Source: Mugil cephalus
Taxonomy: Eukaryota; Chordata; Actinopteri; Mugiliformes; Mugilidae
Reading direction: 5' to 3'
Length of the DNA: 64,000 nt
NCBI RefSeq assembly: GCF_022458985.1
Contig: NC_061783.1
Location: 11,770,913 to 11,834,912 of the forward strand
Shown here: positions 5,480-32,281 of the stretch, piece by piece
Layout: every line of letters starts with the position of its first letter
Numbering within the stretch: the stretch's first letter is position 1
The notes under the pieces: model-generated
The model's database searches: none
Seen by the model: the letters and a program-made list of their open reading frames with translations, nothing else
Told to the model about the DNA's origin: nothing
Program-made: the position numbers and the translations under genes

Positions 5480-6162
5480 CCCATGAAGACCGAAGCCTCA
5501 ACATAGAAGTATATAGGAAACCCGCGCACACAGATCAACACCTGTTATTTGATTCACACCACCCTCTGCAACACAAACTAGGAGTCATCAGAACCCTCCA
5601 GCACCGAGCACAGACTGTTCCCACTAGACAGGAGGGCAAGGACAAGGTGGGAACACACATTAAATAAAACCTCAAAACATGTGGAAATCCCAACTGGGCC
5701 TTTCTCAAAGGCTCAAAAAGATATCACAGGAAGGACAGGGAAGAGGAGCACAGCAAAAGGAAGAAAATCACAATCCTCTACATAGCTGGTGTATCAGAGA
5801 AACTGAGGAGCAGTTTTGGTAAACACCACATCCCAGTTTATTTCAAACCTGGAAACACACTAAGACAGAAACTGGTCCACCCCAAAGACAAAACACCTAG
5901 ACAGAAACAGAGTAATGTAGTGTACGCTGTTCAGTGTAGTGAGGAATGTACGGATTTGTTCATCAGGGAAACAAAACAACCCATCCACAAACGCATGGCC
6001 CAACACAGGAGACCCAGCTCATCAGGAAACGACTCAGCAGTCCACCTCCACCTGAAGGAAAAAGGACACTCCTTTGAGGATACCAACGTCAAAGTCCTGT
6101 CCAGAGAGGACAGATGGTTTGAGAGAGGAGTTAAGGAAGCCATCTATGTCACTGTGGATTAA
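5480..6162 (+). mobile_element. Degenerate Penelope-like retroelement, 3' part with GIY-YIG endonuclease
   Basis: The best-preserved frame, 5920-6162, reads YAVQCSEECTDLFIRETKQP and continues through QHRRPSSSGNDSAVHLHL to DRWFERGVKEAIYV. This is the GIY-YIG endonuclease of fish Penelope-like elements, in which GIY corresponds to the YAV region and YIG to LFI. The second Gly and the Tyr are lost, so the nuclease is probably dead. Upstream (about 5480-5900), in shifting frames with stops, are remnants of the preceding reverse-transcriptase tail. The element is 5'-truncated and a fossil. Confidence 0.75.
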
Positions 6163-9500: not shown

Positions 9501-12500
9501 ATGCAGCCAGGTAGGGTCATTCAGTGCATACAAGCTACCATTCTTATTCTTCTTCTGTAATTACGTTTGTTTGATGCATTCTCCATTTATAGGCGTTTCC
9601 AACAAAAGCCAGCTGTTTGATTCCCTAAAGGCGTATCTGAACAATAAGAAGAGATTACAACCTATTATAGGTCCGTAGCATCAAATCCCTATGTGTTTTT
9701 TTTTTTTTTTCAGTGTGCTTTGAAATAATCCGTTATTTTTCCGTACATTTAGGCCTGAGCAGCATCGTAGAATGTGTGAAGGTGGGAAGGCAGAACAGAG
9801 AAGCGTTGTACTTCTGTGAGGTGTGCGTGTGTCGGCTGAGTAGAGTCGACATGAGGAACCACATAGCGGGAAGTCTCCACAGATTCAACTACATTGTAAG
9901 CAGTACCGGAGAACGTGGCATGATGGCAAAATTGCGCCGCTTCAGACTGTGTTTTAACGGGTGATGCTTTGCCTGACAGAAAGCCCGACACCAGCATTTA
10001 GTGTCTGAATGGCAGGAGGACTCCGACCTGTCTAAGCTGGCGTGGCCTCTCATGGAGATGGCCAAGGTGCTCGAGGCGAGGGAGGGAGCGGGGGATGTAC
10101 AGGTTTGTCATTTTGAGTCTTCCTCTGCAGTTGCAAACCAATTTCTGAGTCTGTGGGAATGCTCATTTCTTCTACTTTTGAAGTTGTTCGAGGTCGATGA
10201 CGGCGTCTACCAGAGGATGGCAACACGCAGCGAAAATGACGGTGTGTGAATACTCGCTCGTTCAAAAAGAGCCCCTCCTTTCTCACCCGTGGACATGTCC
10301 ACGTTGTGTCTATTTACAAAAGCTGTCTTTCTCTCTGCAACACCACAGCTGTGACTCTGATAAATTTCTTAAGAGATGGTCAATCTGAGAGTCACCCAGA
10401 GCCGATCGCTACATCTTCACAGTCACAGAGGATTGTGCTGCTCGCACAGAACCAGCAGCGATGGTCAGAGAAACCCCTCAAGGCTGACATAAAACCGTTC
10501 AGCTTTCTTGACGACTATACAGGAACCAAGCCTTTGATTGGTGAGCACAAAGTTGGAACTAAATGATCGTTTTTCACCATTACCATTAATGCATGTGAGT
10601 GCTTTGACATATTCCGTAGTGGTCATTTAAAGGAATAGTTTGACTTTTACGTTGATACGTTAAAGCATGCGGTATTTGAATGAGCGTAACTCACAGTATT
10701 TCGCTCTGTTGATAAAATTCACCAGGAAGTTGTCTGGAAGACCTTCGTGACATCTCAAGGGTGTAACTAACTTCGTTTTTTACCAACAAATTCCTCCAAA
10801 CAACTCTTCCTTCCTCGCTCCTCGGTCTTGCGTCGCTCCCCAACCTGCAGTTGTCATTACCATAATGGCAGCTTTTTTTTTTCTCAGAAATCGCAACTTC
10901 CCAGTGTTCAGCCACACTTTTGTCCATCTGTGAGTTATGGTAATTCAAATATGGCAAGATTTTATTTTTTTTATGTTCAGGTCTTAAAGTGTTGAGGAAA
11001 AACACTTTTTCTTGCCAAGACTTCTATGAGAAGGCTTTATATAACTGTCTCATCTCCCTATTGGAATAAGAAAGGAAGACTTTATTTTAGAAAACAAATA
11101 TTATATTAAAAAAGCCACTTATACACATTTGCAACAGGTCTTGTCCGTGTGGTTGAGTGCAGAAGTGAAGATGGCTCGTCGTATTGCTTCTTATGCCACT
11201 GTTGCCGCATCAGATCCAACAAAAAGGACATCGTTGACCACCTAACCAGCTCTTCCCACCTCGTCAACTACTTGGTTAGCTCGTTGTGAATCAGTGATCA
11301 AGACCTCTACCTTACAGAGCACGAAGGGAACGTGCTTCGTGTGACTTAAATTGAAGGAGAATGTGTTTGTGTAGATGGAAACCCGTCCGGAGCAGGTGGA
11401 GTTAATGACTGAAGCTGATAACAAAGCTAACGAACCGCTTCTTCAATCACTGGCCAAGAACGTGGAGCAAGAGGAGGGCAGAGGACAGCTGAAGGTATCT
11501 CATTTTGTTTAGGGCACAAATTATGCATGGCCCCTGCAGTGCTTAAGCTTTACATTAAGCAACTAATTTTCCGCAACGCTCGTGCTTTCACACGTCCTTC
11601 AGTTTTTTGAACGTCTCACGTCTCCAGGTAGTAAAGGCACCAGAATCCCTCTGTGCGCTTCTCACTGGCAAAAGTTACCACTGGTGTAAGTACAGATGAT
11701 TGTTTTGTTTCTGTGGCTATAAACCCTTCACCTCTTTTACTCCGACTCTGCTCTTGGGGTGTGACTCTGTGTGTAAGTACAACACTCTTGTCTTTTCACA
11801 TTACTATTATGTGACTCCATATCTTCAAAGGAAGGTGTAATTAATACTTGATGCACTAGACCCTGATGGATTTCTGCTTCAATTCAAGTAGTCAGCAAAA
11901 TATGTAGAATATATGTGTTTGCATTCAACTTGTTGTTTTGCTTACCTTTTTTCCATCTTCATTTGTAAGTATGTGTATTTGTGAAGTCTACCTCAGTTTA
12001 CTTTATCCTCCTCACAGTTTCAGTACTATCAACACAGATGTTTTTTTGGAATACACTGTTTTTTTGTATACCCCCCCGTGTTGTTTTTAATATTTTCCAG
12101 GTATCAAGATGCTGTGTGATGGATCAGCAAATACTAATATCCCAAAAAAGAGAATGGCTGTCAAAGGTGTGCGTCTTTGCAAACAACAGTTCACTTTCTC
12201 TTTTGATGATGAACTACAATTGTAATTTTATTTGTTTATGCTTTTTTGTCCAAGAGCCGAGTGTGAATGAGACTTCGGTTCGAGTCACGTCATCAAACAT
12301 GCGGCCAAGACTGACGAGAAATCAAAAGAAGAGGAACGCCAGAGCGAAGAGTACTGTGTTCAGCGTTAGCCTTCCTCTTAACAGACGTACACTGCTGCTG
12401 GAGAGGGCATCTTTCAGCATGGGCGGCTTCCCTGTGTCACCTGGACCACCTTCACCCAACTCTGAGTCTCAGTTAGTGGACTTTGAGTTAGACTGTGACA

Positions 12501-13441
12501 CTGGATCATTAGCAGCTAACAAAACTGAATGCGCTCCGGCATCTAAAACCTCACAGCTACAGCGATATCGCTACAGTGACGATGCAGGCGATGGTCAGTA
12601 CGTGCCAGAAAAAAACTTAAGAGTCACCCTGTTTCAAGATGTGAATGGTTGCGTCCGTAGTACTGACCAGTTAAGCCAGTCTGAAGACATAACGGGGACT
12701 AAAGACCATGAGGTGCAGGGGGAAATGAATGATACCAGAAAGTACAGCTCTCAAGAAATTAAGACATGGAGGAATGAAGACCTTCAGACACAAAATGAGG
12801 ACCTGTTGCCTACGCAGTGTCACTCTCAGGACTGGTCCTCTTATAATAAGGCTTTCTACACATATGAGGAGGGTTGCACGGAGCAGTGGTTCAATTCAAC
12901 AGCAAAGACTGATGTTGGAACAACAGTGGAAGAGTCGAGAGAAGAAAGTCACGGCGTCATGAGCTCAGATGCTGTTCAGCATTATAACCAACAACACCTC
13001 CACAATCAGTATATGCCAAGTAACAACACAAGTTCCCTGACGGGCGCTGTGGGGAATCATGGTTTGTCTGGTGAACTGTTGACTAATTTAAATGGGGTCA
13101 GGATGAACATACAGACTCACCCAGGAGGTCCCCTTGCTCAAAGTGGCAGCGTTATATTCCAGCCTGGAGCGCACTCACACACGGTGTACCCCAGTGACCA
13201 TGTCCAGACAGCTTCACAAAGTTATTGGACTCAATTTACAGCCTATCAAGCCGACCAAGTAGTCTCTGGGTACCCGTCTATCCCCAGCCACAATACTGGG
13301 AGTTGTACCGGTCAAGGTTTTTCCTGGATGAACCCCGACCAGAACTATCCTTATTCAGTTGGGACCAGGACGGAGTCGACTGCTTACAGCCAACCTGAGC
13401 AAGCTCTGTATTATGCAGCAAACTCTAATCTAAATTTCTGA
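9501..13441 (+). CDS. Gene B: uncharacterised protein with two matrin/U1-type C2H2 zinc fingers (11 coding exons, about 723 aa)
   Basis: Coding exons: 9501-9510, 9593-9670, 9753-9895, 9980-10102, 10184-10241, 10349-10540, 11138-11274, 11375-11494, 11628-11685, 12101-12166 and 12255-13441. All have AG acceptors and GT donors and the phases close to 724 codons including TGA. The first ATG (MQPG) follows an acceptor at 9477, so a spliced 5' leader or an upstream coding exon is possible. Residues 1-240 hold a duplicated module. Each copy has a PIIGL or PLIGL motif, then a finger (CEVC-x11-H-x5-H, and CHCC-x11-H-x5-H) ending NYI or NYL, then a helical segment and a linker. Fingers of this spacing commonly bind RNA or bind DNA weakly in the nucleus. 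The last exon (395 codons) is polar, apparently disordered, and Tyr/Gln/Ser-rich. It lies downstream of its relative gene A and about 1.2 kb before the RPRD1 gene. Function unknown; I know no symbol for it. Confidence 0.85.
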
Positions 13442-13776
13442 GTTTGTTTGGTTTCGTCAATCAAACTAGATGGTATAACTCCATTCGTGATTGCATGTGC
13501 AGTGATACTGAGGCTACAGGGACCTTCAAACCAAAATGTGTAATTTATACCTTTTGTTTTTCAAGTGAAGTTGAGAATCACAGTCGATGATACTAAGCAT
13601 CAAACTTTGGATAGCAGCTGGCTGTTATTGTTATACAAATTGTATTAGTCGACTCAGTCATCAAAGTAATTGTACATATCAAGTCTCAGTCGCTCTGATC
13701 TTTTGTTTTTTTGTCTTCTATTTCTTTTAAACCACCATGTCAGTGTTACTGCATTTATCATGTTCAACCTGTGCCT

Positions 13777-13918
13777 CAACCTCCTGAGACCCGAGCTACT
13801 GTTTGCAATGCATTTTTAATTTTCCAAGGTATTTGGGATTAGGAGGAACCAAGAAGTATAAAAACTAAGCATCTTTTTATAAAAAAACAAAACAAAAACA
13901 GGATGTAGTTTTTGAAAA

Positions 13919-13990
<72 letters not shown>

Positions 13991-14238
13991 TTTTTTGTCC
14001 TCTTGTGTCCTCACATGGACACAAGGATTATTTCACTGTATTTTACAATAAAGTCACCAATGTGTAACAAAATATAAAACTGTTTTTATTTACAGAAAAA
14101 GAATAGAAAAGTTAATAACCATAATTAAGTTTCAACCGTAGAATTTGATGAGGTTTTCTACCTTGTTCACTTTTGTCCCACGAGTGGCTGTTGAATGAAG
14201 ATGTCCCCATATAAGGACACGGGGTTCAGGAGGTTAAT
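13777..14238. mobile_element. Non-autonomous DNA transposon (MITE), piggyBac-like ends
   Basis: The left end (CAACCTCCTGAGACCC from 13778) and the right end (GGGTTCAGGAGGTTAA to 14237) are inverted repeats of about 16 bases. The right flank is TTAA and the left TCAA, consistent with a piggyBac TTAA target site with one change. The 460-bp interior has no ORF and contains a long A/TA/T hairpin. It lies in or just after the gene B 3' UTR and supplies AATAAA signals (e.g. 14048) that could end its transcript. Confidence 0.55.
13914..13996. repeat. A(n)(TA)n T(n) self-complementary tract
   Basis: About 22 A residues, then about 17 TA/AT dinucleotides, then about 24 T residues. The whole tract is a perfect palindrome by composition and would fold into one hairpin or cruciform. 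It sits inside the MITE. Confidence 0.93.
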
Positions 14239-14675
14239 AACAGGAAGGAAGAATGCACTGTATGTTTGCATGTATTATGTAAAGCAATATAGTAGCTTAT
14301 GTCATTAGTTAACGATATCTCTTTTTCTTTTTTTCTTTGTGGCGTGATAAAATTACGCGAGGTCAAATTCTAGGCCTGTGGCTTTTTTTTGCGGTAGTTG
14401 TAATTTCCGTCCGGCGTAAACGCAACATATCTACGGAAGCGCCTCTTGCAGACTGCTGCTGCAAGACAGACACCCCCCCCCCAACAACAACGTCGGTAGC
14501 TAGTTAGCACGAGCAACCAGTAATCAATGCAGCAAGGGTAGCGCATGGCATCAAATTTGGATGGAAAATAATTCCGGCAGAGGCAGATTAACTTGCTTTT
14601 GACGACACATCTGGGGGGAAACCTGAAAGCGTCCTCTCCCGGTGCCTCTCTCGACTCCCTCCTAATCTCGTCGAG
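14239..14675 (+). promoter_or_regulatory. Promoter and 5' UTR region of the RPRD1A-like gene
   Basis: Composition shifts to more GC and CpG (CCGTCCGGCGTAAACGC, CGGAAGCGCC near 14410-14450) just before the start codon at 14676, as expected of a housekeeping promoter. No TATA box is evident. Start site not defined. Confidence 0.4.
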
Positions 14676-17600
14676 ATGTCAGCTTTCTCCGAGGCTGCTT
14701 TAGAAAAGAAACTCTCCGAGCTTAGCAACTCCCAGCAAAGTGTGCAGACGTTGTCGCTGTGGCTTATCCACCACAGAAAACACTCGAAGACCATAGTCAA
14801 TGTTTGGTTCAACGAACTGAAGAAAGGTAAGGCTGCTCTGAGCTAGCTAGTCCCTCGGAGTAGACGTAGCTGACACGCTTCTTCTGCAGGGGACAGTCGT
14901 GTTAAATGTTGTAGCCGGATACTACACAGCTGGCTGCAGCTTTATTGTAAGATTAACGCCTTATTGACTTGCTAACGTATAACTTATTACACAATGGGCG
15001 TCTGCTAACGCTAGCCAACTTTACAGTGTTATCAGTTAACCGTGTTTGTGACTCTGCAGCGTTGTATTATAGTGAAGATAAGTTGTCTTTCTGTCCCCTA
15101 AGGTTTGACTAGTCGTCTTCACATGCAGATATTCTGTAAAGTGACCAAATCTCTAGTTGTGTGAACAGTGGTGTTAGTCAGTACTTTAACCCTACCCGTC
15201 GTGCAATGTATCGCGATACTTAAATGTTATCCGAGATTAATCCCTGGGTGCAGATATTACATTAAAGCTGCCACAAAGTAGGTACATTTAGTCAATAAAA
15301 GTTTCCTGACAAGCACCACGGTGGCAGTAGCAGACTTTATTTTGCGTCTACGATATGTGCTTAGTTGGATAATCCATATATAATAGCACTGCAGGCTCAC
15401 AGTTACCATGTGTTCTTATTAGATGCATACACAGCTCCCTTTAAATGCTAAACTATGCAGAATGAATTGATCTATGCTATGTGAGACATGTAAACTGTGT
15501 TACATGGAAGTAATTCATCTCTAACCCGCTAATACCTAGACGAGTAGCTGTGAGTATTTTGGGTTGCAGTTTGATGTGACTGCATTTGTATCTAATAATG
15601 ATGCACACACTGCATCTCTGGGGTGTTAGTCGGCAACCTAATGATATCTCAAGTGATTGTTGTATTTTGGGACATTGTCTGAGGACTGTAAGTAGAGTTC
15701 AGTCAGTGTTAATAGCGGTGGGAATAGAGATGGCCGTCTCCGGAGCATTGCTCTCACCCTTAGTGTTGGCTGTGACCAGTCCAACAGCAACATTAGTCCA
15801 TGAGATGACGCCTGCCCTGAAATTCAGTCCAGTGCTTTGCTTTAAAAAAAAAGGTATGATATGATCATGTTATCGGTAAATCTGCTGATGCTCCAGAACA
15901 GGCTCCACATTAATCAAAAATATCTAAATATGAGTTGAGTTAACTCTGCAAGGACATTGTTATTAATTATATATATATTTAATTTATATATATATTTTAC
16001 CCCCCTTGGGGGGTGCAGATATGTACACTCCTTAGACAGTTTAATAGGTACGCTAGTGAAAACAAATACAGTGTAATATGACAGTCCTGCGCTAAATCCT
16101 AGTTTTGTGGCTGTTATAATTTTCAGTTTATGTTAAAAAAAGCATCAGAAATGTTACTATTTTTAACTAATCCTAAATACTGTGACCTTCGTTTATGAAG
16201 TTAACATTTAGTGCAGAACTGTTAAATCAGAATGCATTTGTTTTCATCAGTGAACCTAATGAACTGTGGTTAGTCTACCATTACTTCTATATTTGTGCCT
16301 TAAAGTAACTTTTAGGTAGATAAAACCCCAAGAGAGTTCACGTAGTTACTGTTTTTGTCTAAAGTGTCAGGCAGAGCGAGTTAACCTGTTAACTTTTAAT
16401 GAATCCAAAGTACTCGAGCTTAAGTGAGGGTTTATTCAGAAAAGAGAAAATAAGTAGATGTAGCACAGCCCACTAATGAGGAAAAACATATATCCACATT
16501 TAAAAATGTAATGTCTTACATACACACACGGTACAAACTCTCTGAGCACCACATTCACATACCGTTAAGAACTGCTTCTTCTTTTTTCAACACCTGTCTG
16601 TAATCACGGCTGTATAATTCCACTGAATCATGTCTATAAACACCTACCCTAACTCATGGAGCTTATCTGTGGATAAACGGAAGAATAAACCATGCGATTT
16701 AAAGGTTGTACGTGTGTGTTTGTTCTCAGCTGTGACTCATTGCTGTTATTCAAGAGTTAAAATACAATAGTTTCTGCTATGTAAGTCGCATTCAGATCAC
16801 CTTGTAACATGGGTCCTTTTGTTTTTATTTTAATGCACGCAGCTCAGGTATCACGCAAGCTGACCTTCCTTTACTTGGCCAATGACGTCATTCAGAACAG
16901 CAAGAGGAAAGGACCAGAGTTCACCCAGGACTTTGTGCCGGTCATCGTCGATGCATTCAAACATGTGTCCAGGTGAGATCAGAGTTACAGGGTCACGATA
17001 CGAAAATAAATAGAGGAGCATTTAGTCAGATTTTGACTCGTCGAGGGGACATACTCGCGGTCCATTCATTTGCCAGTTCATTAGGAACACTAGTGAAAAC
17101 ATGCATTCTAATATAACAGTCCTGCACTAAATCTAAGTTTCACAAAGGTTATGGTATTCAAGATTTGTTTAAAATAACTGAGAGCTGTTGCTTCATCTTC
17201 GTTTTCAGTTTAGAGCTGTAACGTGTTGTATTGACACATATTTCTATTATTTTGTCAACCACAATTTCATCAGTGGGCTAGTCTGAATAATTCAATCCAG
17301 TTTAACAGCACCACAAACTACATCCTCCACAATGATCATATGGTTGAATCACTACCTTCCTGATGCTGTTTCAACATAACCTGATCATTATAACGGTCAT
17401 AAAACAGGGTTTAGTGCAGGGCTGCCATGTTAATTTGTCTTCACCGCAGCTACAATAAATCAAGTTCCTGTGTTGTTTTGAGTTTAACGGAGTAAGTGAA
17501 AGTGTACGTGCTCTTGTGTGTGCGTCTCCAGAGAGGGCGAGGAGGGCTGTAAGAAACAGCTGGGTCGGGTTTTGTCCATCTGGCAGGAGAGAGCGGTTTA

Positions 17601-20457
17601 TGAGAACAACCTCCTGGATCAGCTCTCACAAGTCCTATGTAAGTCTGAAGCTGTAAAGCTGCTGTGTGGTTTATTGCATCGAGTGCACACTTTTTCTTTT
17701 CAGCCAGTAAAGCGAACCGCTTTTATTTCAAACCCTAGATGGAGAAAAGAAGGCTAAGAAGAGGTCGTATGAAGAAATCCAACCAGATGACGAGGGCTTC
17801 GCTTCTCAGAGCTCCCCAGCTGAACCTCCACAGGTACAAAAAGTTCTGCTATAAAAATTCATGAAATTCTACTTTTTTAGCAGCACAGACGATTGATGTG
17901 TTTTATGATCAATGTACAGTTAATACAACTCTCTATTTTAATATATATCTATCTCTCTGCTGCTGTGACATGTTGTGACACGTATCATGTGTACATGTTG
18001 TCTCCTGTCCCCGCTTCCTGTCCCTGCCTGCACCTCAGACGGCCGAGTTAATTCGAGCTCTGCAGGAGCTGGAGAACGCAGCCTCTGGCGACTCAGTGTT
18101 ACGTCAGCGCATCTCCTCCCTCCCTGCTGAGGTGCAGGACACATCACTGCTTCACAGGATCACAGGTAGGAGGCAGAAATACAAAGTACTTCTGTGCACT
18201 GTATGTATTACCCACATCCCAGACCCACGGTTCACCAGAACATCTTATATAATAATGACACGTTCTTAGTGGGTAGCACAGCGAAGCTGAAGGTAATCTA
18301 GGAAATCAGGGTTTGCATCTTTGTGTGAGCAAATACCTCCTCTCCTTAAGTGCCCTTCATGTTATTGGTTTTCTATTTATTTACACTGGACCCTTGTCAA
18401 ATTCGTACCAGTATCATCTGATCCAGACAACAAAGGGATTTTACCAGTTTGTATTCATTCAAAGCCTGTAAACCATTGATGAAGTTAACTGTAGGACACT
18501 CAGGACTTACTTGGTTACAGTCAGTCTCTGATAATACAGTAGCCGTTGACATTGTGTTAGGACCGATTGATAACTTACTGGCCCTCAGCTGAACTCTCCA
18601 GAGTGACCATGTTTAAGCTCTGCTCCCTCCCCTTCCTGTGCCTTCTGTACTGTAGATAAAGAATCAGGGGAGCGTCTTTCCCGGCTGGTGGAGGAGGCCT
18701 GCATGCTGCTAGCAGACTACAGCGGCCGCCTGGCGGCAGAGATCGACGACAGGAGGCAGCTCACGCGCACACTCATGGTCTTCCTGCAGAGCCAGAAGGA
18801 CGGCTTGGCCCAGAATGAGCAGAAACTTGAAGTGCGTGAATAACTTTTTTTTTCCTTTCAATCCTAATTCGTTTATATGTGTATGTCTTGCCTGCTTCAT
18901 CTTTCTCACAAGCATCTGTTTGTCAGTCCGTGTGCTTTTCAAAGACACGTTTTGTCATGTATTTCAGCATGCTGCATGCTTTCTGTTTTTGATGCACCGC
19001 CCTACTTCTTATAGTCCGATTGTTATGTCTTCTGTTGCTACAAACGTAAGAAAAACTCCACAATAGATGCAAACTGAACCTCCCAAGTGAGGTTTTTCAT
19101 AAAACAAGGACATTTCCTTGTCCTTTGAGGCTTTTTTCACTTAGCTCTTTTTACCCAGTGTGTACTGATCATAGGGTAAGTATCTACCATCCACCTTGAG
19201 TGTTTGATCACATAAAATTAAACTGAAGATGTTCTGGTTTTCTCATAGCCATGATTTCTTTGTTGTGACAATAACTGTCCAGATTTATCCACAGGATACC
19301 AAGAGGATAAAGGATCTAACTTCTCACTTCACTCAGTCAAGATATTTGTAATAAAAAAAAATGAAAATAAAAAATGAAACTGAATTTGTGAGTGCTTTTA
19401 TTTACCTGGAAGTTATTTACCTGGATGTTTTCAATTTCAAAGATGGTCCTGGTAGAGTGGAAGATGTTATTATAATGTTATTACATGACCAACAAAAACT
19501 AAAAGAAAGATCAACATTACAGGACTCTTTCTCTAAATTATTGATTAGTATTTTTCATTTAAAAATGAAATGATTAAAATGAACGTGTAACTGTGGCCTT
19601 AGGAAATGTGGTCTACTTGCACATTTCACCTACATGCATTAGTTGTCTGACAGTAATACAATAAACACATCTTACAACTGATATATGCAGCAAAACCAGT
19701 GCAAAAACAAAACATTTAACAGACACTTAAAATATAAGGAGTGAAAAATAGTTATGAATTAGATGCAGCCGTGTTCTTTGCTGTTTGAGTTGCATACACT
19801 GATAACATTTACTTTTAAACCTTGCCTTTTTTTTTCAGACGTGCACACTACAGATGTTAAACTTAGAGTTCTTCCTCTTTCAAATATTTTAAAACACAAT
19901 CAACAAAACTACATATTTGTTTAGTTTAATTTACCTTTAATGTGTTTTACACATGAAAATGTGGGAGTGTGTAGATAAATCTCATCATAAATTTAATTAT
20001 TTAAAATAGTAGAGAGCTGAGGGTGTTAGGAACTAAGAGCTTGAACATACTTGGAAAACAATCTCCTTTTACCCACAAATAAAGTGTTGTTTTCTAATTA
20101 AACTAATTGTAAGAGATAGCACATGTTTGATGGATGACTTTAGCCAAACACGTGTCACTAAACTTAAGTTAGATCTAAAGCTAACACCCAAGAAATATAC
20201 AGTAAAAAATAATATAGCCATATATTGAATTGTTATCTTCTGAATTTAAAAAAAAAAAAAATCACTGTCACTCATTCAGACTATACAGTGTCTGAGATTT
20301 TCTGTTCCTCTTTTTTTTTTTTTTTTTTTTTTAATTAATTTTTTTGTATCTTTTTTAGGAATACAAACGCAAACTGGCACGGGTGTCCCAGGTCCGGAAG
20401 GAGCTGCGGTCGCGTCTGAACAATCTCCCAGAAGGACTCTACAATTCTTCGAACTGA
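14676..20457 (+). CDS. rprd1a: RPRD1A-like regulator of nuclear pre-mRNA domain protein (7 coding exons, 294 aa)
   Basis: Exons: 14676-14826, 16843-16972, 17532-17638, 17739-17833, 18039-18165, 18656-18831 and 20359-20457; phases close to 295 codons. The N-terminus (MSAFSEAALEKKLSELSNSQ) and LTFLYLANDVIQNSKRKGPE are the hallmark of the RPRD1 CID domain (about residues 1-130), which binds the phosphorylated C-terminal domain of RNA polymerase II. A linker and a C-terminal coiled coil follow (ESGERLSRLVEEACMLLADY, EEYKRKLARVSQVRKELRSR). In the family, RPRD1 dimers bridge CTD repeats and help recruit the phosphatase RPAP2. The EACMLLADYSGRLAAEIDDR stretch is closer to RPRD1A than to RPRD1B. The protein ends NNLPEGLYNSSN, lacking the usual conserved LPNVTG...AGD tail of about 18 residues. 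A fish-specific duplicate is not excluded. It lies between the paralogous zinc-finger genes B and C. Confidence 0.93.
16025..16135 (+). repeat. Dispersed fish repeat, copy 1 (RPRD1 intron 1)
   Basis: The string AATAGGTACGCTAGTGAAAAC, then GTAATATGACAGTCCTGCGC and TAAATCCTAG, recurs in diverged form at 17078-17165. It looks like a short interspersed or MITE-type repeat whose family I cannot name. Confidence 0.6.
17075..17460. repeat. Dispersed fish repeat, copy 2, with an inverted end (RPRD1 intron 2)
   Basis: 17078-17165 matches copy 1 (ACTAGTGAAAACATGCATTC, AATATAACAGTCCTGCACTA). The complementary end GGTTTAGTGCAGGGCTGCCA appears at about 17407-17427, so the whole copy is about 380 bp with inverted termini, suggesting a non-autonomous DNA element. 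Confidence 0.55.
18832..20358. other. RPRD1 intron 6; AT-rich, nothing coding
   Basis: Last intron of the RPRD1A-like gene. Contains A-rich and T-rich tracts (20310-20332 is a T run just upstream of the acceptor). No gene or recognisable element seen. Confidence 0.6.
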
Positions 20458-21415
20458 CTGAAGCTACCTGTCTTCACCACATGCCCTCCTGCTACTGAAA
20501 CATCCCAGCCTGTCTCTTCGATACGTGGATCAGGGGCCTCGCCACAGTCCACTGTTCAGGACTTTGAAAAGAATCTCTTTGTTTTCCCTGTATGGTGACC
20601 TGTTTATCCTTTATCATCGGGAATGTCTTTATTTCTGTCGCTGAAGCTCATCTCTTAGACTAAAACACTGTAAATTAAGATTTGTAAAGATCGGAAACAG
20701 GTCTCTCATGCTTTGCCATCCCGACCCCCGCCATCTAACATTTACAGCTTTAAAGTGGTGTGGCTGATGCTGGTGTGATATTTTTGTATTTGCAGTGTCT
20801 CAAGATGCCGCACCAGATTATACCCATTTTGTGTGATCACTCATGATAATTTGCAGTGTTTACATTTGCTGTTCCTTGTACTGTTAACATTTGTCTTAGT
20901 TACAGTTTTTCCTTTGCAGTGATCGTTCAAGCTGAAAATCATTGATTTTATGCAGTGAGATCATTAGAAAACCAGGTTCCTCAAAGCAGCCTATGTATTA
21001 TTTTCATTAAGCTTTTTCTTAGTGAAAGAAGTGTGTAAATCATCTCTTGTATGTTTTCATGTTTGCATGTAAATACGGTGGAGTTATATCTGCTCATAAG
21101 TGCTTATGATTTGTATCTGTGCCGACATGGATGTGAAATGGTCACTCAAACAAATTACTGAGGTATCTCCTACCTCCTCTGGGCTGAAATAATCAGTGAA
21201 GTGAAGATGCAAGTTTTTTCTCCCCGTTATATTTATTGTATTGCTTCATAGTTTTATTCCTAAATCTCCTAAAGGCTGTGCTGATGCCTCCCACAGCTTG
21301 AGAAGTGCCCCATTTTCCAAAGCTGAAAGATGAAAAAAAGAACCGTTTGTCATTGTAAATATGAAGCAAATGCTTCTTAGAACCAAATAAACCAAATACA
21401 CAAATCTTTGCAGTC
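20458..21415 (+). other. 3' UTR of the RPRD1A-like gene with polyadenylation signal
   Basis: Non-coding sequence continuing from the stop codon. AATAAA at 21386-21391 is the most convincing distal signal. Extent is inferred from the signal only. Confidence 0.5.
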
Positions 21416-22150
21416 CTAAAGTGTGTGCCCATTCCTTGCAAGTAAGGCATGGCTGGCAAGCTAGCAGTCTCGTGGAGGAAGGTTTACCCATTCATCCTCT
21501 GTGACCCTTGATGCCTCGCTACGTTTTGAAGGCGACTATTAGTAGGCCTGTTGTAAGGCGGTAATTTATGTTTCTGCGTTGAGCAATGTCACTACTTGTA
21601 ACTACGCGCGGATGGTCTGTGCGTAGGTCAGCGCATAACTATAAATTAGCGTTAAGGCGGCGTGCATGGAGATGGCGTTTGTATCACACGGCTTAGTGGC
21701 GGCTTGCATGCCATAGTTCAGACGTACTTAGCACACGCAAACTTATAGTAAATGTCGAACATAGGTCGCCGCGGATCTCTTGTCTGTAGCACCAATCAGT
21801 CCCAATTAAATTCCACACGGACAGCGACTTTCACTTCCGGTATTTCACCCACCATACAGGAAGTACACATTAGCTCCATCCGTCCACTGAATGCGTACCC
21901 TTTAATACAGTTCTGGTGTAAACAGGCTTCCCACCACACAGCTGATGAAATAATAAAAGCACAACGACGCTAACTCTGTAGTCTTGGCAAAGAGTTAGTT
22001 TATGCGTTGCGTGTAAAGCAAAGCAACGATTAGCTAAGATAGCTTAGTTACATCCTCTTGCCAGTTGAGCAGTTGCTAAGCTGTTAGCAACCGAATCCCA
22101 GGAGGAGACGCTAGGCTAGGTAAGGCCGGGCAAGTCAAATACCTTCAGCC

Positions 22151-25100
22151 ATGGATATCGAAACACCATACGACGAGGAGCTTGAATTCATCACATGCAC
22201 GGTAAGCAGGCTATTGTCTGACGGTTCAAGGAATATGGAAAAATGCAGCATAGATGTAATAAATCAGCGAGCTGATTGCCTCATTGCCTCGTAAGTTTGT
22301 TACTCATCTGAATCATATCACTGGATTCATACCACTACTACGAGTGTATATCTCTGTGAACCTAATAAATTGTTAGCTGACTGACACTAATGGATTTGTT
22401 TTCTCTCCAAGATCTGTGATAGGTCCATAAGAGGGGAAACTTTGTTCAAGATACACCTGACCACAGCACCACATATAAAGGTACACGCCACAAATCAGTC
22501 TGTGAACATCGTATTAAATATCAGTAATGTTACAACAACCTGTATGTGTGTAGTGAGCATGTTACTGTCACTTTTTATGCATTTCCCCTTTTTCCTCTCA
22601 AATTAGGTTCAAGATAAAATTCATTACAGGGAAGGACAAACAGCCAAGTATAAACTTTCAGGCTCTTAACAAAATCATGTCCGGGGAGTTGTTCGTTTCA
22701 AGGGCCAGTGCAGTGTTTTGATTGATTTCCTATCATCCTTTTTTCCCCCTGACCTACCTGTATAACCCAGTGCATCTTGGGATGGCCAAGATACAAATGG
22801 GTGATACAGTAAGCAGCAGATGGTTGATTCGACTCTGTAACTACCTCAATTACAAGCTTAAGGTGCTTCAATGACTCCCCTGATTTTTGTCTTTCAAACG
22901 GATAAAGGTGTGACAGTCTCACCTTCAACAGCATGTGTAAAAAACTCACATGGCATCTCTTCAACCATGGCTGAACTTTTAAGTAACTACTTGAGCTGTA
23001 TGTCTTGGTTATTTTTGAGGACTACTGTGTCTTTGAAGAGGGTCCCTTGCAGTAAGTCTATTCCAAATGAGACAAATATTGATATCAGCCTGACCTGCAA
23101 TACTTGATTCATGTTTCCGCGTGTTGTCTTGCGTAATCACATGTCGACGATTGTGATGTATACAGCCAGAACAGTGGGAGCGAGTTAGACACTGTATTTT
23201 CGAAAGCCTCACATATGGCTGAACCGCCGTTTTCTTTTTCGAGTACTTGGACTGGAGGCAACAACATTGTCACTTAGACTGATGATTCATCCTCACACCT
23301 GGAGTCTCCACAATAGCAACACTTTTCTTCAGACACCCCAATGCACTGAAGTGGTTTTTAGAATTTTTGTGCCACCAGATGTCCTGGTACCTTTAGCACT
23401 TAACATTAATCAGTCAGTCTCAAATGGAGTCAGGTCATTTGGCCAAATGACATCCTCTGGAACAATATTGCATGAAATGGTCCCCTATTAGTCCTTTTTA
23501 GGTCTGTCTCAAATGAGAAATACTTCTTAAGTTTTTCTATTCCTTCCAGACATTTGCCAACCTCAGTCCCTGTAAGATTTTTGGGCCAAGAGTTGCTGTA
23601 CTCCCAGGTTTTCTTGATGGAAAAACTCTGAAGATTCATGTTTTGGTTCGACAGCTGACATCACAGCTGACACAACACTGAAAGGAGTGCTTTCACTTTT
23701 GGTGCTGCTAAACAGTCGGGCCTAGCAGACAAATAATACACACGGACAACTAAGTCTTACAGATACTAACGCCTTATCCCCACCTTTACCAACTTGTCAG
23801 CAGCATCTTCACCTCTCTGTCTTTTTCTATAGCCACTGTGATGGTGTTTGAGCAGTCTTTTTTTTTTTGGAAGAGCTCACTGCCAAATACACAGTAACTG
23901 TAATTATATACTGAAGCAGATGTCGCCCAATCATCGGTCCAAATCTTTCGGCTGTCTTGGATTTGTGCATATTCTGCATTCCCTGTGTTCATTTTGACAT
24001 ATTTTATGTCTAATGGTAAATATTTAACATGGGATTTCGGGTCAACCCGCCTTGGCGTGCTTTCACACTTCCAACCGCCCTCTGTGAAGGGTCTCTCATA
24101 TGTCATCGTGTCCAAACGTCATCATTACACATTTAAGTGTGCCTGCTCGTCTTGTCGTTTATCAGGAGTTACTTTTTTTAATGCTTTCAGTTTGTTGATG
24201 AGCTGCTGAATGGACCAGTCAAACACCTGCTCTTTCAAAAGGCTGCTGATATTCGAATATATCACTGTGTCCTGCACAGTGCCCAATATCTGCCTCTGAA
24301 TCTCCTCTTCTCCTTGGATGCAGAGCAGCTCGCGGATGTCACGGTCCTTCCAGTGCGCTGCCATGAACAATTAAAAAAAAACAAAAGTGTGTGCCATATC
24401 ACTATACAAGCTGTATATAAACACAGTTGCGCATGCGCAGTTCACATGAAATATGGCTAATTCACCTATGTGTGTAATAACACATTTGATTTGTTTGATT
24501 GGTAAAATGGACAAAAATCTCTGCCCTTGAGAGATCGGCCTCAGGGAGACCAACAGGAAGACTGATCTTATGGGAGCAGACCAAAGCTCTGTTTTGAGTT
24601 GCTCGCAGCCCTGAGCTCCTACAATGACAGTCCGACAGGCTGTCCATTGACAACATCAGAATGCGACAGGCGGGTACATCGAAGTCATCGTGTAATTTAG
24701 CAGGTCGATGCTGGATGCCTTTTCACACTGAAGCCAAACCGAGCCACTAAAATTCCGGATCAGTGTGAAAGGAGCTCAAGAGGACGAAATGTACCTGTAC
24801 TGCACCTCAAGCGAGCAGTAGCTTTGATTAAACATTATGTGTTTAAAGAAAAACATATTTGTTTTCATATAATAACCCTTTCTCTGTCTGTAGCAGAGGT
24901 GAACTACAATCAGTGTCCTGCTTACTCAGAATTGACTGAATTAATTTTTGTTGCTCTCCTTTTATTCCTGGCAGAAAGAGGATTCTCTTGTTGCTATGGG
25001 TAAGTAGACCACATCTTCAGCAATTTGTTCTATTTGGCCCTATATATATTTACTGGCACTTAATTGACTCTACACATGAATGTAGACTCATTCTGATGTG

Positions 25101-28100
25101 TTTTAGTTGCACAAAATTAGGCCACGGAGACCCATTTGTGTCTACTAGGGTAGGTTTTCCGATTCTTGTTTGATGTTTTTTTTTTTTAAATAGAAGCCAA
25201 ACAATATCTCAAAAGCCAATGTCAGCATTAGTTTAGTTTCACAAATAAGCAAAATTGTTTTGAAACTGAAATATTTTGAAAAATAATTAATCAGAACCCT
25301 GTGAATTGGAGTAATGTTGATCCAGGAAACCAGTAGTAATACCGAGCAGATTCACATTAAATTATTTTAGGTCAAAGAAGGGCCAATATTTGTCTACCTG
25401 CTATATCTGCCAACTAATGGCCATGGACGTGGATAATGAAAGATGCAAGTAGACATGTCTGCGGCTCTATCCAGGATGCTTTGGGTAAGTTGCAGAAACA
25501 AGCAAACTGTGTGAGTGAGAACCCTGGCAGGGTGCACGTACTGGAGCCTGTCCAGGATTTTGCTGGGAACCCCGGACAAGACTCCATTCCAGTAGTCCAG
25601 ATGAGAGAAAATGAATGTGTGTATCAGGGTTTTGGCAACGGAGTCTGAGAGCGAGGAGCGGAGACGGGTGATATTCCTGAGGTGTGTTCATATTGTTAAG
25701 TTGGAATAGCTTGGTTGTCAACCAGGTTTTTATAGATAGAGGGATGGTAGGTGAATGGTGTCACAGAAATCTAGTTTGTGGTAATGCATCATCTGGCCGA
25801 GGGGGATCAGGTAGATGGTGAACAGGACAGGACCAAGGAGGATAGTGTGGTAAACTGTGTCAAAAACTGAGAGATCAAGGAGAATGAGGATGCTGATTCT
25901 GCAGGTATAAGGAGATCATTGGTTATTTTGATCATGGTGATCTCAGTGCTATGGTGTGCTCTATAGGCAGATTGCATGGGTTCGTAGAGCTCATGGTTGG
26001 ACAGATGTTGATGAAGTTGGACACTTACTGCTCTTTCCAGAACCCTGCTGATGAAAGGGATGAGATCGGGCGGGGGTTGTTGAGTTCATTGGGGTCCAGA
26101 CCAGGTTTAAGGTTTTTGAGGATGGGTGTTGGAAGCTGTTTTGAAGCTGGGGGGAAAGATGCCAGATGCTAGAGAGGAATTGATTATGTCAGTGATGAGT
26201 GTGGAAGCAGGCCTTCATCAGTGGAGTTGGCAGCAGACATGTAGAGGCTAGTATTTGATACCAGCCTTGAAACTTGGCAAGTTCATGGACATTCATGGAG
26301 CATCGGAGGTGAAGTGGGCCAACTGACAGTAGACTGCTCAGTGCCAGGGGCACACTGAGAGGAGAAGGGTTAGATGCTAGGAGTTCTTGATGCATGGCAT
26401 CAACGTAAACCACAAAAAAGTTGAGGAACTTGGGAGGGGGAGGGCAGAGCAGGTGGTTAATGTTGGCAGACAATGTTCTGACATGGTTTTACTGAGAGCT
26501 GATGAGGGAGCAGTAGTATTTAATCGTGGTCTCAAAGAGCTCCAGAAGGCCAGACGGTGGAAAGTGAGGCCATTTTCTTTTTTTTTTTTAGAAACCCTCT
26601 CTAACCTGCAACCTGAAGGAGATGGCTTGGGGTTCGAGGAGGGGCATGGGGATAGCACAGCATTATAGTGGGCACCAAGACCAGCAGGGAAGGTATCAGG
26701 GGAGGTCTGGGCTATGTGGGTCAGGAGCAGGTTTGACAAAACCAGTGGACTTACTGATTGGATTTCCCTAAAGGAGATGGGGTCCAGGGCACTGTGAGGA
26801 CAGCGCCCTAATGGGGACAAGAAGGGTGAAGATAATGGCATGATGGTTAGATACCACCATGTCCAAGCGCTGCTGATGAGAGGGTTGGGTGCCAATAGAG
26901 CAAACTAAGTCCAAAGTGTGATCTTTGGCCTGGGTGGAGCCCCATCTGGAGGAATCCTTATGGATGTTGAAATCCCCGAGCAGGAGTGTGGATGGAAACC
27001 TAGAGCAGAAGGATGTCAGAAGCTCAGTGATCTCAGACAGAAGGGTGGTGGAGGCCTTGCAGGGATGAGGACAACCAGGAGCTGAGGAGACCCAAGGAGT
27101 GAGAATGAGATACATTCAAAGGATGATGTGTTTGGAACAGGGACCTCCTTGACTTGTATGTCATCTGGGTGTGTAACTACCAGTCTACCGCCATGGCCGA
27201 ACAGGGTTTCCGGAGATGCACCTAACTCAGGGAGTGACTTTGTTGAGGGTAAGAGCAACTGCGAGGAGACGGCAGGGGTGCACATGGGGTTTGTTGTGAT
27301 GACATTGATGTCCTGCACAGGAGTATGCCAATGAGATGACAGGAATGGAATTAGCAGAGACTGAGTAAAATTTGTGTTGCGATGCCCTATGAATGTAGCG
27401 GGGACGTCGCAGTAGTCCAACTGATTACATGACATCCAAGCAGATGGATCCTGCCAAGCATGCAAGATTCTGGAGAGCAAGAGAGGAGTATTTGAGCACC
27501 TTGTCTGCAGCAGCAGCAGGTATAGAGGTGACATGGATGGGGGAATAAACTCACCAATAGTCCAGGTACTGAGTCTGCTAGCAGGTGACCTGAAAAAGCT
27601 GGGAGGAGGAGATCAGGGCTACAGATCCAGGAGATGGAAAAACTGGAAGGTTGGTAGCTTGTCAGCAAGAATAGAAACTGCTACAAAAAGCCTCAAACAA
27701 CAACGTGTGCACGTTGGCCAACCTGCACCCTGGAGAGGCTTGTTCCAGCAATCTTGATGAGTCCTAAAGAAATGTCCTGAAGAAAATTGTACCTCCCTGT
27801 TGATGTAAGTAAAGCAAAATGTTATGATCTACGTGTTCAAAGAAACTACGGGAGATCCTTCATAGAATTGTCTACAGTTAGTTGTGCATTTGTAGCATTT
27901 CTGCCAGATTTCTGGATGTGTAGATACATGAAGATGTTACTGGGGTTGCTTGAACCTGGACATCAAAAGTGCTGGAATTCAAATGGAACAACCCACCACT
28001 GTAACACAACCACAATGTGCAAGAACCTCATTAAAGAATAACTGCCGCATTTCGACATCATGTGAGACAGCAGCGCCAGTATTTGGACTATCACAGTGGG

Positions 28101-31100
28101 TTTTCTGTGATTCTTATTCAGCGGTTAGTGCCTGGAAGTCGCCGTTTGGTCCTCACCTTTTCTTTTTCAGACAAGGCCTCAAGAAAAACTGCCTTGAGAA
28201 AATCACTGTTCTCAAAAAACAAAGTTAAAACAAAGAACTGCTTAATCCCACGGTTGCCATTCAGACACACAAGGAGCAAACCTGGAAAAATGGGCCGACA
28301 CCTTTGCTGTACCGGGAAGCAGTTTTGGGGGTTAGATGCCTTGTTCAAGGGTACTTCAACCTTGAATTCATCATTCATCTGAACCAGTGGCCCAATGGTC
28401 CCAAGTCCACTTCCCTATCCACTAGTCCACAAGCTACAGGATTATCAAATGTAGCATTCCTCAGATGTTTGCACTCTACAAGGATTAGATTATATTTGAT
28501 GATATTTAAAAAAAACAAACAAAGAACTCTGCATTGTTTTCTTTTTTTAACCATCAGTGTCGGGTTTTACAGGGCAAGCTGTCAGACGGCAACATGTGCC
28601 TGAATTTACAAACATTGTACAATATCTGGATTACCTGAAGCTGGATGAGCCCATCATTGGTGAATAACAAATTTCCGAACATTTGTTACTGAATACCACA
28701 TCAATTTGATCAAATTTGACTATTCCTTTTATGTTTTTAGGGTTGACTTTTTTGGAGGAAGTGCCATCTAATGACCCGGCGAGCCCCAACTACTCATGTG
28801 AGCTGTGTCATCTGACCGCAAACATGGCCGAAATGGTCCGTCATGTCATTGGACGTAAACACAGGCAGAAATATGTGGTAAAGCACTGTAAACATTTTTA
28901 GGAAGCTCCAAGAAGACATTTTTGTGTTTCAGCTCTTTTGCATTTTCAGTAAGATGATAACATGAAATGTTTATGTAGGAACTAAAACGGCAGGACTTGG
29001 TGACCTGGGATAAACAATCCCTTTCAACCCAAGGAGGAAAAGTGATGCGAGCCAGAGCAGAAATAATAGAGAGACAGGATGGACGAGGAACTCCAAAGAT
29101 GGTAAGTATGGGTAACTAGACATGTTAAATATTCTCTTTTTCAAAATGTAATTGTGAGAGTAACATGCATTTGGTTAACTTTTGTGCGTTTCAGTTAATG
29201 GTGAAAAAGAGGACTGACACCAAATTGAACATCTCAAGAGGTACATTCATCCAGTGAATTCAGTTATCTATCAAGGTAAGCCCAACACATTTACAGTGAT
29301 GTTAATGCCATATCTATCAATTCTCAAGGCCCCCCAAGGCAGAACCAAAACAGAGACGGAAGGATCCCACTGAGAACCCCACACGATGTTCCACCACTCT
29401 TACCAGAACTAAAGGACTACCAGAGTAAGATCTCTCCCCGAAGGATGTATCCCCCAGATTACCCAAACACACCCACTTTCCATCCAGATGTACCGAACAT
29501 GGACAGAGACAGACCGTCCCGATGGGAGGACTCCCTTAGACAGGACAGAACGGCAGAGGAGGTGCAAAAGGCAGATTACAGGGAAAGAAGTACGTATAGA
29601 GAAGATCGCTTGGACTCTGATTATCGTCGTCAGTATGAAGGAGATTATGTTGAAGAGCCACGAAGAAGTGTAGTTCTCAAGCCAGACGATGATTCCAGAC
29701 ATGATTACAGGGAGGCTCCTTGTGCAAAGTATTACCCCGGGGAAAGATCTTACCCAGAAAGAGATCCTTTGAAGGAGTTCTACACCGAGGAAGTAAACCG
29801 AGCGCAGGTTCGTTCAGCTAAGAGCGCAGAGTTTCAGCCCTCCAAGCTCGGGTACCCTGAAGGCGATAAACAACAGTGGCCGCTGGAGAGAGACTCTGGT
29901 AGACATGATCCCATGAACAGAGCAGGAAGGCAGGGATCAAGGGAACCAGAAGACAAATGGAGGAACTTTACCCCACCAGCGGAGAGTGACCGATCACGGG
30001 ACCATTTGTTTAGTGTAATCAGAGATTATCATCATAAAATGGGAGGACCATATCAAGAGGATAAAATTGACAGCCCGGGGCCTAGCAGAGCAGCAGCCCC
30101 TACCACGCAGAGCCGAGCAGAAGCAACCAGGACCTTCTCTGACATCCCTGAGCCATTCAGGCGTTTCCTGACAGGGGCCGATAATGAAGAGTCACGCGGT
30201 AAAAGGAAAAGAAAGAGTCGTTTCTCTGACGCCACTCCAGAGGAACTAGAAATGACAAAGGAGATGTGAGTGCTAAGATGGTGGGCTAGTAAGTTCTAAA
30301 CGGAAATGTTGTATGTGCTTTTTTTTTTTTGACGTGTTTGATTTTTGCTTTCAGTTTAAGGAATGAACACGGACCTCCAAATCCAAAGTTTGGTGGTGAT
30401 TCTAGAGCAGTTACTGGATCACTGAGACCCGAATTCAGCGGAGCGCAGTATTCGGACCACATGAGAAAATCACAGGTAATTAGCCAAAATAGGCTGTTCT
30501 GGTTAACTGTTATTGCCTAATATCTTACACCCCTGATTAATCAGTTGTGTACACTAACTCTTGAACTGATGTTGGGCTGGTTCCTTTTTTTTTTTTTTAG
30601 AGTCCAAATTATTCTGATAGCTACCAGAGAGGAAGCTCTGAGTCAGATGGTGTCTTTGATATGCTGGTAAGATCATGAATTACGAACATTTATTACAGCT
30701 TGTGATTTGTTTATTTTACAACAGCTCACAGATCATGTCTTTTTCCTGCTAGAGAAACATCGACATCGAGAACGCAGAAGAGGCTGACTTCCTGAAGAAC
30801 AAACTTTTCAGCCTCCTGAAAGAATTCAAGAGCAAAAAGTTGGAGAAAGTGGTGGTATGTGTCTTTTTTGTGGCCAATTCTTGGCCTCTTTGCAGAGCAG
30901 CAGAGATGAATTGAACAAGCGTTTCTTTGAGTTGCAGCAGACAAACCGACAAAGTATGGGCAGCATGTCAAACGATTACACGCAGCCACCTAGACAAGAC
31001 CAGTATGAGAGAACCCTACGAGAAGATTCAGACCGTAGACCATCAGAAGACCTCTACTCCAGAGACGATAACAGGAGAGGCTGGAAGCAGTGGGAGCACG

Positions 31101-32281
31101 TGCCCGAGCAACGCCCCCAGGAATACCACCATCCAGAACGTGGGGAACCCAGACACTCGAGCAGAAGCCGTTTTGAAGGTCTGATGCATGACATTTCTGT
31201 TTCAGACCACACATTAAAAGCGTTAGTCAACACAATCGATACAAATTAAATACTGCTACTAAAGACTGCCATTAGTTTTGGTTCATAGTTGGAAGGTAAT
31301 AATTAGGGCTGTAGTGTGTTGGTTGCATTCTGCAATCTCACCACTAGATGCCACTCAATCCTTTGTACACATCAGTGTTCTTGATTTCATTAGTAAATCA
31401 AATTCATCTGTAAAATCTGACAAAATCAGACCTTTATTTATTCATCTCTCGTATTATTGAGTGTACTACCACCTTTGCAACCTGTACTTCCTGGGTCTCA
31501 AGTCTCCCACTTTTGGAGGATTCCTCTTGAAAATGGAAATAGCAGGCAAACACTGTTTGCCCCTTTTCTCTGAGCCCACTTTACTAAGCGTAGTATTTCT
31601 CTCAAGCTTCTAAGTTAGTTCCAAGCTCATTGATAGTGGACATAAAGTGATATTCTCTCAGAGTAATCGCAGGTTTTGTCGATCACGTTAATCGTGGCTT
31701 CCACTTAGACAGGTCTTGTACACATAGGATTTAATTATTTTAGTAGAATATTTCTGTCGAGAGTTGTGCAGAAGCTGTTTTATATGGATTAAAGGCCAGT
31801 ATATCAGATATTTAATGGAATGTCTTCAATAAGTGTGACAAGTGGTCTTATTTGACAAAGCATTCTTCACTAAAACCACGCTTTGTGTTAAGTAGTTATA
31901 TTGTGTGTACCCAAAAAGCATACATAGTTGTTCAACTTGTGATTTTCACATGATTATGATGATCAATAAACTACAAATTCTGTTTGTTCTGCCAGCAGTC
32001 ATTTTCCTTCCGCTGTGTTTCATTTAAGGTGTTTTCATCTTGTCTTTCTTTCAGAGGATTTTGGGGGCCATTTAGATCAACGCCCTTCTTATTCTGAAAG
32101 GTTTCAAGAACCCAGACGCCCACAGGACTACCAACCTGCTGCTCAGGAGTTTTTTGACTCCCGCTCTTCTCAACCTCCCCTCCAAACGGACCTAGGACCC
32201 AGGATGAATAGGGGCTCCCGTTACTCTAACAACCTGGACAAAATCACCTCCACCCTGCTGGAATTTGTGTCAAGGAAGTAA
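22151..32281 (+). CDS. Gene C: uncharacterised matrin/U1-type zinc-finger protein, RS/RD-like (13 coding exons, about 762 aa)
   Basis: Exons: 22151-22201, 22412-22480, 24975-24999, 28558-28659, 28741-28877, 28979-29101, 29195-29240, 29329-30265, 30355-30475, 30601-30666, 30753-30854, 30896-31178 and 32055-32281. Phases close to 763 codons with the stop. The start MDIETPYDEELEF leads straight into finger 1 (CTIC-x12-H-x5-H), split by intron 1. Residues about 50-175 hold the cassette shared with gene B: DEPIIGL, finger 2 (CELC-x11-H-x5-H) and a basic helical stretch. Exon 8 (312 codons) is rich in Arg, Asp, Glu and Tyr and ends with KRKRKSRFSDATPEE, a U2AF-ligand-like motif. Residues from exons 11 and 12 (NAEEADFLKNKLFSLLKEF) look helical. 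The C-terminus is LDKITSTLLEFVSRK. Probably a nuclear RNA-associated protein; this is inference. The exon at 24975 is only 25 nt and is chosen because it alone restores frame. Confidence 0.83.
22700..23785 (-). mobile_element. Decayed repeat DNA upstream of the Harbinger-like remnant
   Basis: Fragments of open frame on the minus strand with many stops lie between gene C exons 2 and 3. They adjoin the SANT-like remnant and may be the rest of that transposon, but I could not recognise a transposase motif. Confidence 0.3.
23786..24370 (-). mobile_element. PIF/Harbinger-type remnant encoding a Myb/SANT-like protein
   Basis: The minus-strand frame at 24125-24370 begins HWKDRDIRELLCIQGEEEIQ, continues through QRQILGTVQDTVIYSNISSL and ends QQLINKLKALKK. 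This is the trihelix Myb/SANT-like DNA-binding domain carried as a second ORF by Harbinger-type transposons in fish. The segment 23786-24115 continues it in a shifted frame. No terminal inverted repeats identified. It lies antisense in gene C intron 2. Confidence 0.6.
25430..27780 (-). mobile_element. Antisense L2-type LINE, decayed but long
   Basis: On the minus strand, reading from about 27780 down to 25430, fragments occur in the order of an L2 ORF2. The endonuclease region has SSFECISFSLLGSPQLLVVL, then LLLGDFNIHKDS (the catalytic GDFN motif) and DHTLDLVCS. RT-related fragments follow, then near the end SGVPSKILDRLQYVHPARVL, matching the LDYCN-LL-GLP---LDRLQ--QN-AARVLT block. Frameshifts and stops interrupt it, so it is inactive. 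It makes up most of gene C intron 3. Confidence 0.75.
28300..28440 (+). repeat. Short dispersed fish repeat
   Basis: The motif GGGGGTTAGATGCCTTGTTC followed by AAGGGTACTTCAACC resembles a widespread fish repeat core (GGGTTAGGTGCCTTGCTC AAGGGCAC). Family not assigned. Confidence 0.4.

Follow-up and report, generated by a model that had tools for sequence, protein, structure and literature searches.

The zinc fingers closest to the element described here are of the U1 type, which the available part of PMC6488673 defines by the spacing C-x2-C-xn-H-x5-H between cysteine (Cys) and histidine (His) ligands. The same partial text presents a model of TUT4 with double-stranded RNA (dsRNA), in which basic residues of the kinked helix could touch the RNA, and the accessible sections of PMC10415362 describe how the TUT1 finger holds the double-stranded U6 telestem. 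We analyzed 64,000 nucleotides (nt) of Mugil cephalus DNA (C14:11770913-11834912, contig NC_061783.1; this whole stretch is called the window), in which a four-exon cassette around such a finger is repeated in two genes, B and C. It looks like a repeated multi-exon module that has diverged and been overlooked, and not like a new type of system. No name for the module was found in the libraries searched, namely Pfam, PDB sequences and NCBIfam, or in the open-access literature as far as its listings go.

Fingers upstream of the window are called A1-A6 and A5b, the cassettes of gene B are B1 and B2, that of gene C is C, and the relative on chromosome 11 is K11. Negative coordinates lie upstream of the window. 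The genome position equals 11770913 plus the number, a rule which for upstream coordinates includes a one-base overlap at the junction. We also fetched the 90 kb before the window and the 40 kb after it and scanned six frames.

Results

We read the exons of B1, B2 and C from the window sequence. Every exon is bounded by AG and GT, and in all three cassettes the phases run 1-1, 1-0, 0-0 and 0-1, and the lengths and phases given in the preliminary description were present throughout (Table 1). The motifs also occur in the order it had given. A P-[IL]-IGL motif is split by the first intron, with G before it and L after it. The finger follows, in an exon that reads H-x5-H-x3-Y-[ILV] at the donor. 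Exon 3 carries A-[KE]-x-[VIL]-E plus E/D-G-[RA]-G (AKVLEAREGAG in B1, AKNVEQEEGRG in B2, AEIIERQDGRG in C), and a linker closes the cassette. B2 offers two candidates for the first Cys pair, CFLC and CHCC, of which CHCC gives the x11 spacing of the other fingers. Each cassette encodes a single finger, on an exon of its own; exons 3 and 4 come separately after it. A Krueppel-type tandem C2H2 layout was rejected, as B1, B2 and C do not have several short-linked fingers inside one exon.

Similarity between copies was assessed by leave-one-out profile tests against 1000 shuffles, after the Cys and His ligands had been masked. Outside these ligands the three cassettes, which had been described as copies of one another, were significantly similar over the PxxG motif, finger and exon 3: tested alone, B1, B2 and C each beat 1000/1000 shuffles (0/1000 reached any of them). 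Masked similarity over the same parts was significant in 5/6 cassettes with a full exon set, with B1, B2, C, A6 and K11 above all 1000 shuffles and A3 not significant in the six-copy test (187/1000). For exon 3 alone among the six copies, the true score was reached by few shuffles in B1 (1 of 1000), B2 (0) and K11 (0), and similarity was not significant in C (403), A3 (216) and A6 (194). When only B1, B2, C and K11 were compared, exon 3 gave <=1/1000 for each. Exon 4 had no sequence similarity in 6/6 copies; its phase is common, its sequence is not. The finger exon alone gave 12, 27 and 138 of 1000 for the three window copies, a weak test with three sequences only. With ten copies, whose rows were taken from the joint alignment, seven gave <=1/1000, A1 gave 19, A4 171 and A3 581. 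These sequence comparisons support common descent of B1, B2, C and most of the other copies.

We further searched 254 kb, consisting of the window, its flanks and the chromosome-11 region, for C-x2-C-x11-H-x5-H with a GT exactly five codons on. The gene strands gave 9 matches, whereas the opposite strands gave 0, as did 20 Markov copies. A looser pattern (x7-14, GT after 4-6 codons) retrieved all 11 fingers and one unrelated His-rich frame. The ungapped C-x2-C-x11-H-x5-H was seen in 10/10 aligned fingers, which is partly circular, since such a pattern found them. The GT stood exactly five codons past the last His in 9/10 of the x11 fingers.

The preliminary description had counted the cassette twice in gene B and once in gene C. 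Those three copies stand, and the count proved incomplete, as the array runs on upstream of the window: seven further fingers, A1-A6 and A5b, lie within 17 kb there. A finger profile built from B1, B2 and C only, run against 3557 frames, recovered A5 (expectation value, E, 2e-9), A6 (7e-8), A1 (2e-5), A2 (3e-5), A4 (0.025) and A3 (0.7). By the Cys-His pattern A1-A6 are located at -16057, -14900, -12221, -11047, -5950 and -1128, respectively. A5b, at -2855, is a shortened finger (C-x2-C-x8-H-x5-H). It stands at the end of a long open frame and seems to lack the first intron; an exon 3 of 108 nt fits it. The finger pattern search demanded both ligands and donor; therefore the presence of zinc ligands and donor in the A copies cannot be used as independent evidence. 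Each of the fingers A1-A6 can be given an acceptor in phase 1 and a donor in phase 0, these phases being imposed in the search. Full exon sets fit for A3 (63/140/120/58 nt) and A6 (75/134/126/58 nt), with exons 1 and 4 picked among right-phase candidates (exon 4 from three and eight, respectively). No complete exon set was found for A1, A2, A4 and A5. The cluster thus comprises ten fingers (A1-A6, A5b, B1, B2 and C) on one strand, from -16.1 to +28.9 kb.

A search of the fish's own genome with cassette C led to C11:9896994-9897131 (E 0.26), and the reciprocal query returned C (E 0.033). Fitting exons of this relative, K11, are 78 nt (1-1, ending ECIIG), 140 nt (1-0), 126 nt (0-0, ending AEVEKTEGRGQIK) and 46 nt (0-1). 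The sequence search was phase-free, but the search for exon 1 prescribed its end phase, and the donor of exon 4 was chosen in the expected phase. Identical phases in cassettes running from phase 1 to phase 1 are found in B1, B2 and C, and also in A3, A6 and K11 with some phases imposed. Protein queries gave nine places outside the cluster: K11, one gene that we take to be ZNF346-like, and seven others, in which no finger was present by pattern. One of these seven, at C13:20246081, was rejected; its E of 0.0185 with B2 is better than the 0.26 between K11 and C, but it has three stops and no finger. The genome-wide number of copies is a lower bound, because single queries missed many copies of the cluster.

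Ten finger exons gave a tree in which C and K11 were paired (support 85/86, not starred) and the other forks were weak. The tree of six finger plus exon 3 sequences resolved no groups and gave a long-branch warning for C and K11. In raw scores, C matched K11 best in either set (71 and 94). For finger plus exon 3, B1 scored best with B2 (82), and for B2 the scores with K11 (83), B1 (82) and C (82) were tied. Between gene C and the chromosome-11 gene the C-terminal motifs show only a weak likeness (43/2000 shuffles), so the pairing of C with K11 rests on the cassette. The preliminary description had also read the phases as a sign of cassette duplication. Common descent and in-frame duplicability held, given the masked similarity and the phases that fit A3, A6 and K11; a duplication local to gene B may or may not have taken place, as neither tree resolved B1 and B2 as sisters.

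Structure prediction, which had been proposed for the cassettes, gave a confident model for the finger exon of C (predicted local distance difference test 90.7), with three strands and a kinked helix (helices 28-36 and 38-44). Among known structures this model comes nearest to U1-type fingers, one from a U2 small nuclear ribonucleoprotein (snRNP) protein, the other from TUT1 with U6 small nuclear RNA. The U1-type spacing is present in ten fingers (A5b has x8), and the strands and kinked histidine helix are present in the prediction for C. Pfam was given B1, B2, C, A3, A6 and K11 (6/11 cassettes), and no model reached the cut-off. The missing match lowers the annotation and leaves the U1-type fold assignment of the finger untouched. 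NCBIfam, a prokaryote library, named no family for the three finger exons. In searches of PDB sequences JAZ with C was the sole match past E 0.001. K11 gave no match to JAZ at E up to 10, and a nine-finger profile gave E 0.049.

We compared net charges among the copies. The histidine segment carries +4 in C, +3 in K11 and +2 in A5b, and between -1 and +1 in the other eight. Exon 3 carries +3 in C, +2 in K11, 0 in A6, -2 in A3, -3 in B1 and -4 in B2. For the finger core we noted +5 in A5b and +2 in B1 and B2. Over the finger exon, the A and B copies share 13-27% identity with C.

The remaining exons of the genes are included in Table 1. The finger exons of gene A lie outside the window, at about -16.1 to -1.0 kb. 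No Pfam match was obtained for the last exon of gene B (12257-13438) or for the long charged exon of gene C, which is probably disordered. For the tails of all three genes Pfam returned nothing at E up to 1, and thus no catalytic domain. Zebrafish si:ch211-13c6.2 was considered as a candidate identity for a gene here; the one paper found does no more than list the name, so we do not claim this link.

Table 1. Exons and candidate exons of genes A, B and C within the window.
Feature	Position	Strand	Remarks
Long open frame, read as gene A last exon	177..1607	+	follows finger A6; ends in stop; candidate joining splice
Cassette B1 exon 1	9593..9670	+	78 nt, 1-1, ends QPIIG
Cassette B1 exon 2, finger	9753..9895	+	143 nt, 1-0
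Cassette B1 exon 3	9980..10102	+	123 nt, 0-0
Cassette B1 exon 4, linker	10184..10241	+	58 nt, 0-1; no sequence similarity to other exon 4s
Cassette B2 exon 1	10349..10540	+	192 nt, 1-1, ends KPLIG
Cassette B2 exon 2, finger	11138..11274	+	137 nt, 1-0; donor GTTAGC
Cassette B2 exon 3	11375..11494	+	120 nt, 0-0
Cassette B2 exon 4, linker	11628..11685	+	58 nt, 0-1
Gene B exon after cassettes, candidate	12101..12166	+	66 nt, 1-1
Gene B long last exon, candidate acceptor	12255..13441	+	open frame and stop; acceptor phase fits
Cassette C exon 1	28558..28659	+	102 nt, 1-1, ends EPIIG; second acceptor at 28573 gives 87 nt, phase unchanged
Cassette C exon 2, finger	28741..28877	+	137 nt, 1-0; predicted strand-strand-strand-kinked helix
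Cassette C exon 3	28979..29101	+	123 nt, 0-0
Cassette C exon 4, linker	29195..29240	+	46 nt, 0-1
Gene C long charged exon	29329..30265	+	AG/GT, fitting phase
Gene C penultimate coding exon, candidate	30896..31178	+	
Gene C last coding exon, candidate	32057..32281	+	ends LDKITSTLLEFVSRK-stop; acceptor 32055 or 32057

At 14676-17754 there is a gene encoding a CID domain, presumably RPRD1-like. Two of its exons matched Pfam PF04818 (E 3e-12 and 4e-13), and a third matched just below the cut-off. Since this gene lies between B and C, we treat C as a gene separate from B. Exons of NFYC were observed at 47150-50972, where one fragment matches PDB NF-YC chains (E 7e-11) and glutamine-rich frames are near. 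Judged from its translation, the frame at 59063-59490 is presumably like a KCNQ channel exon, and frames upstream of the window, at about -35 to -22 kb, we take to resemble FKBP9/10 and a prolyl 3-hydroxylase family gene. By eye, an inverted repeat in the raw sequence at 2190-2360, with arms of roughly >=60 bases, resembles a mobile element. Long frames at 5668-6159 (+) and 26377-27612 (-) also gave the impression of mobile-element remnants, and neither had a Pfam match at E up to 0.01.

Discussion

The explanation that we favor, and consider reasonably probable, is a frame-safe U1-type module that grips RNA in C and K11 and has diverged in the A and B genes. The cassette would be a module of about 100 residues. 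Its first strand would follow a P-I-I-G-L turn split by the first intron. Next in line would be a C2H2 finger of the U1 (matrin-like) type with its histidine helix kinked, then an exon that several copies finish with E-G-R-G, and last a linker that varies. The basic helix of C and K11, set beside TUT1 and the TUT4 model, suggests that these two fingers probably bind RNA. The helix may grip folded, largely double-stranded RNA, as TUT1 grips the U6 telestem. The finger in C and K11 would sit beside low-complexity tails, and such tails are seen in nuclear RNA-binding proteins. Whole-module duplication may have built the A and B genes; since the cassettes start and finish in phase 1, each duplication would add modules and keep the frame. 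The A and B copies would then have diverged and mostly lost the basic helix, and this probably left them with weaker or different RNA binding, or with protein contacts. We infer that in most A and B copies RNA binding is weakened or altered.

Several other explanations were weighed. The A and B cassettes may be protein-protein modules, in which zinc only keeps the fold and binding of nucleic acid has been lost. The nearly neutral histidine segment in 8/9 of them (all but A5b) is in line with this, as are the exon 3 charges of B1, B2, A3 and A6 when set against the positive values of C and K11. However, the charge of a single segment is a crude proxy, and the finger cores of A5b, B1 and B2 are positive; we regard this explanation as doubtful, if worth serious thought. 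It is also conceivable, though rather improbable, that the A copies upstream are what is left of an older array now in decay, the sole working members being gene B, gene C and the chromosome-11 gene. The incomplete exon sets of A1, A2, A4 and A5, and the near-chance scores of A3 and A4 once ligands were masked, would agree with decay. Against it speak the finger exons, whose frames stay open and which have a GT five or six codons past the last His, and the full exon sets fitting A3 and A6.

Coincidence of phases among unrelated U1-type fingers would account for the dissimilar fourth exons and for the weak likeness of the masked finger exons from the three window copies. It would not account for B1, B2 and C, which no shuffle reached over the PxxG motif, finger and exon 3, nor for the GT five codons past the last His, which no Markov copy reproduced, nor for matching phases that fit on another chromosome, and we find it barely credible. 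We think it unlikely that the fingers are C2H2 fingers of the ordinary DNA-binding kind and that the genes are diverged transcription factors. A bolder reading is a long shot: an unnamed vertebrate, perhaps fish-expanded, RNA-recognition unit, with an A/B array that diverges fast by frame-safe gain and loss of cassettes, as every finger follows a shifting RNA target, for example viral or transposon dsRNA.

If the exons are expressed, the locus encodes a repeated protein module missed by Pfam, and gene C and the chromosome-11 gene are candidate uncharacterized RNA-binding proteins. One copy, C, is predicted to take the fold of fingers by which splicing and RNA-tailing factors hold structured RNA. 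With eleven copies of the finger at two genomic places, and phases agreeing in every full exon set, the genome offers a handle on how genes grow by whole modules.

Among known systems, the finger of the U2 snRNP protein (7q4o chain 1 and others) is 22% identical to C. We take 7q4o chain 1 to be SF3A2, which is a constitutive splicing factor, unlike the cassette genes. The dsRNA-binding fingers of ZNF346/JAZ are U1-type like C (E 9e-4 with cassette C; 1.4 A root-mean-square deviation, rmsd, over 33 residues). The ZNF346/JAZ gene layout was nevertheless rejected for the cassettes: ten of their fingers are x11, and 9/10 have the GT five codons on, versus x12 and an uninterrupted reading. In the ZNF346-like gene of the same genome the two fingers examined have x12 spacing and no GT five codons past the last His. 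The N-terminal finger of TUT1 (9j8p, 8idf) resembles C over 38-39 residues at 0.8 A rmsd with 36-37% identity, and phmmer with cassette C gave E 0.22. According to the available part of PMC10415362, the TUT1 finger and an RRM make up a single domain of a uridylyltransferase, whereas the C-type finger belongs to a repeated module. Finally, like the symmetrical 1-1 exon modules of metazoan exon shuffling, as presented in the accessible portion of PMC6335736, the cassette runs from phase 1 to phase 1 and is frame-safe; it differs from them in that its unit is four exons and its copies lie in neighboring genes of one cluster.

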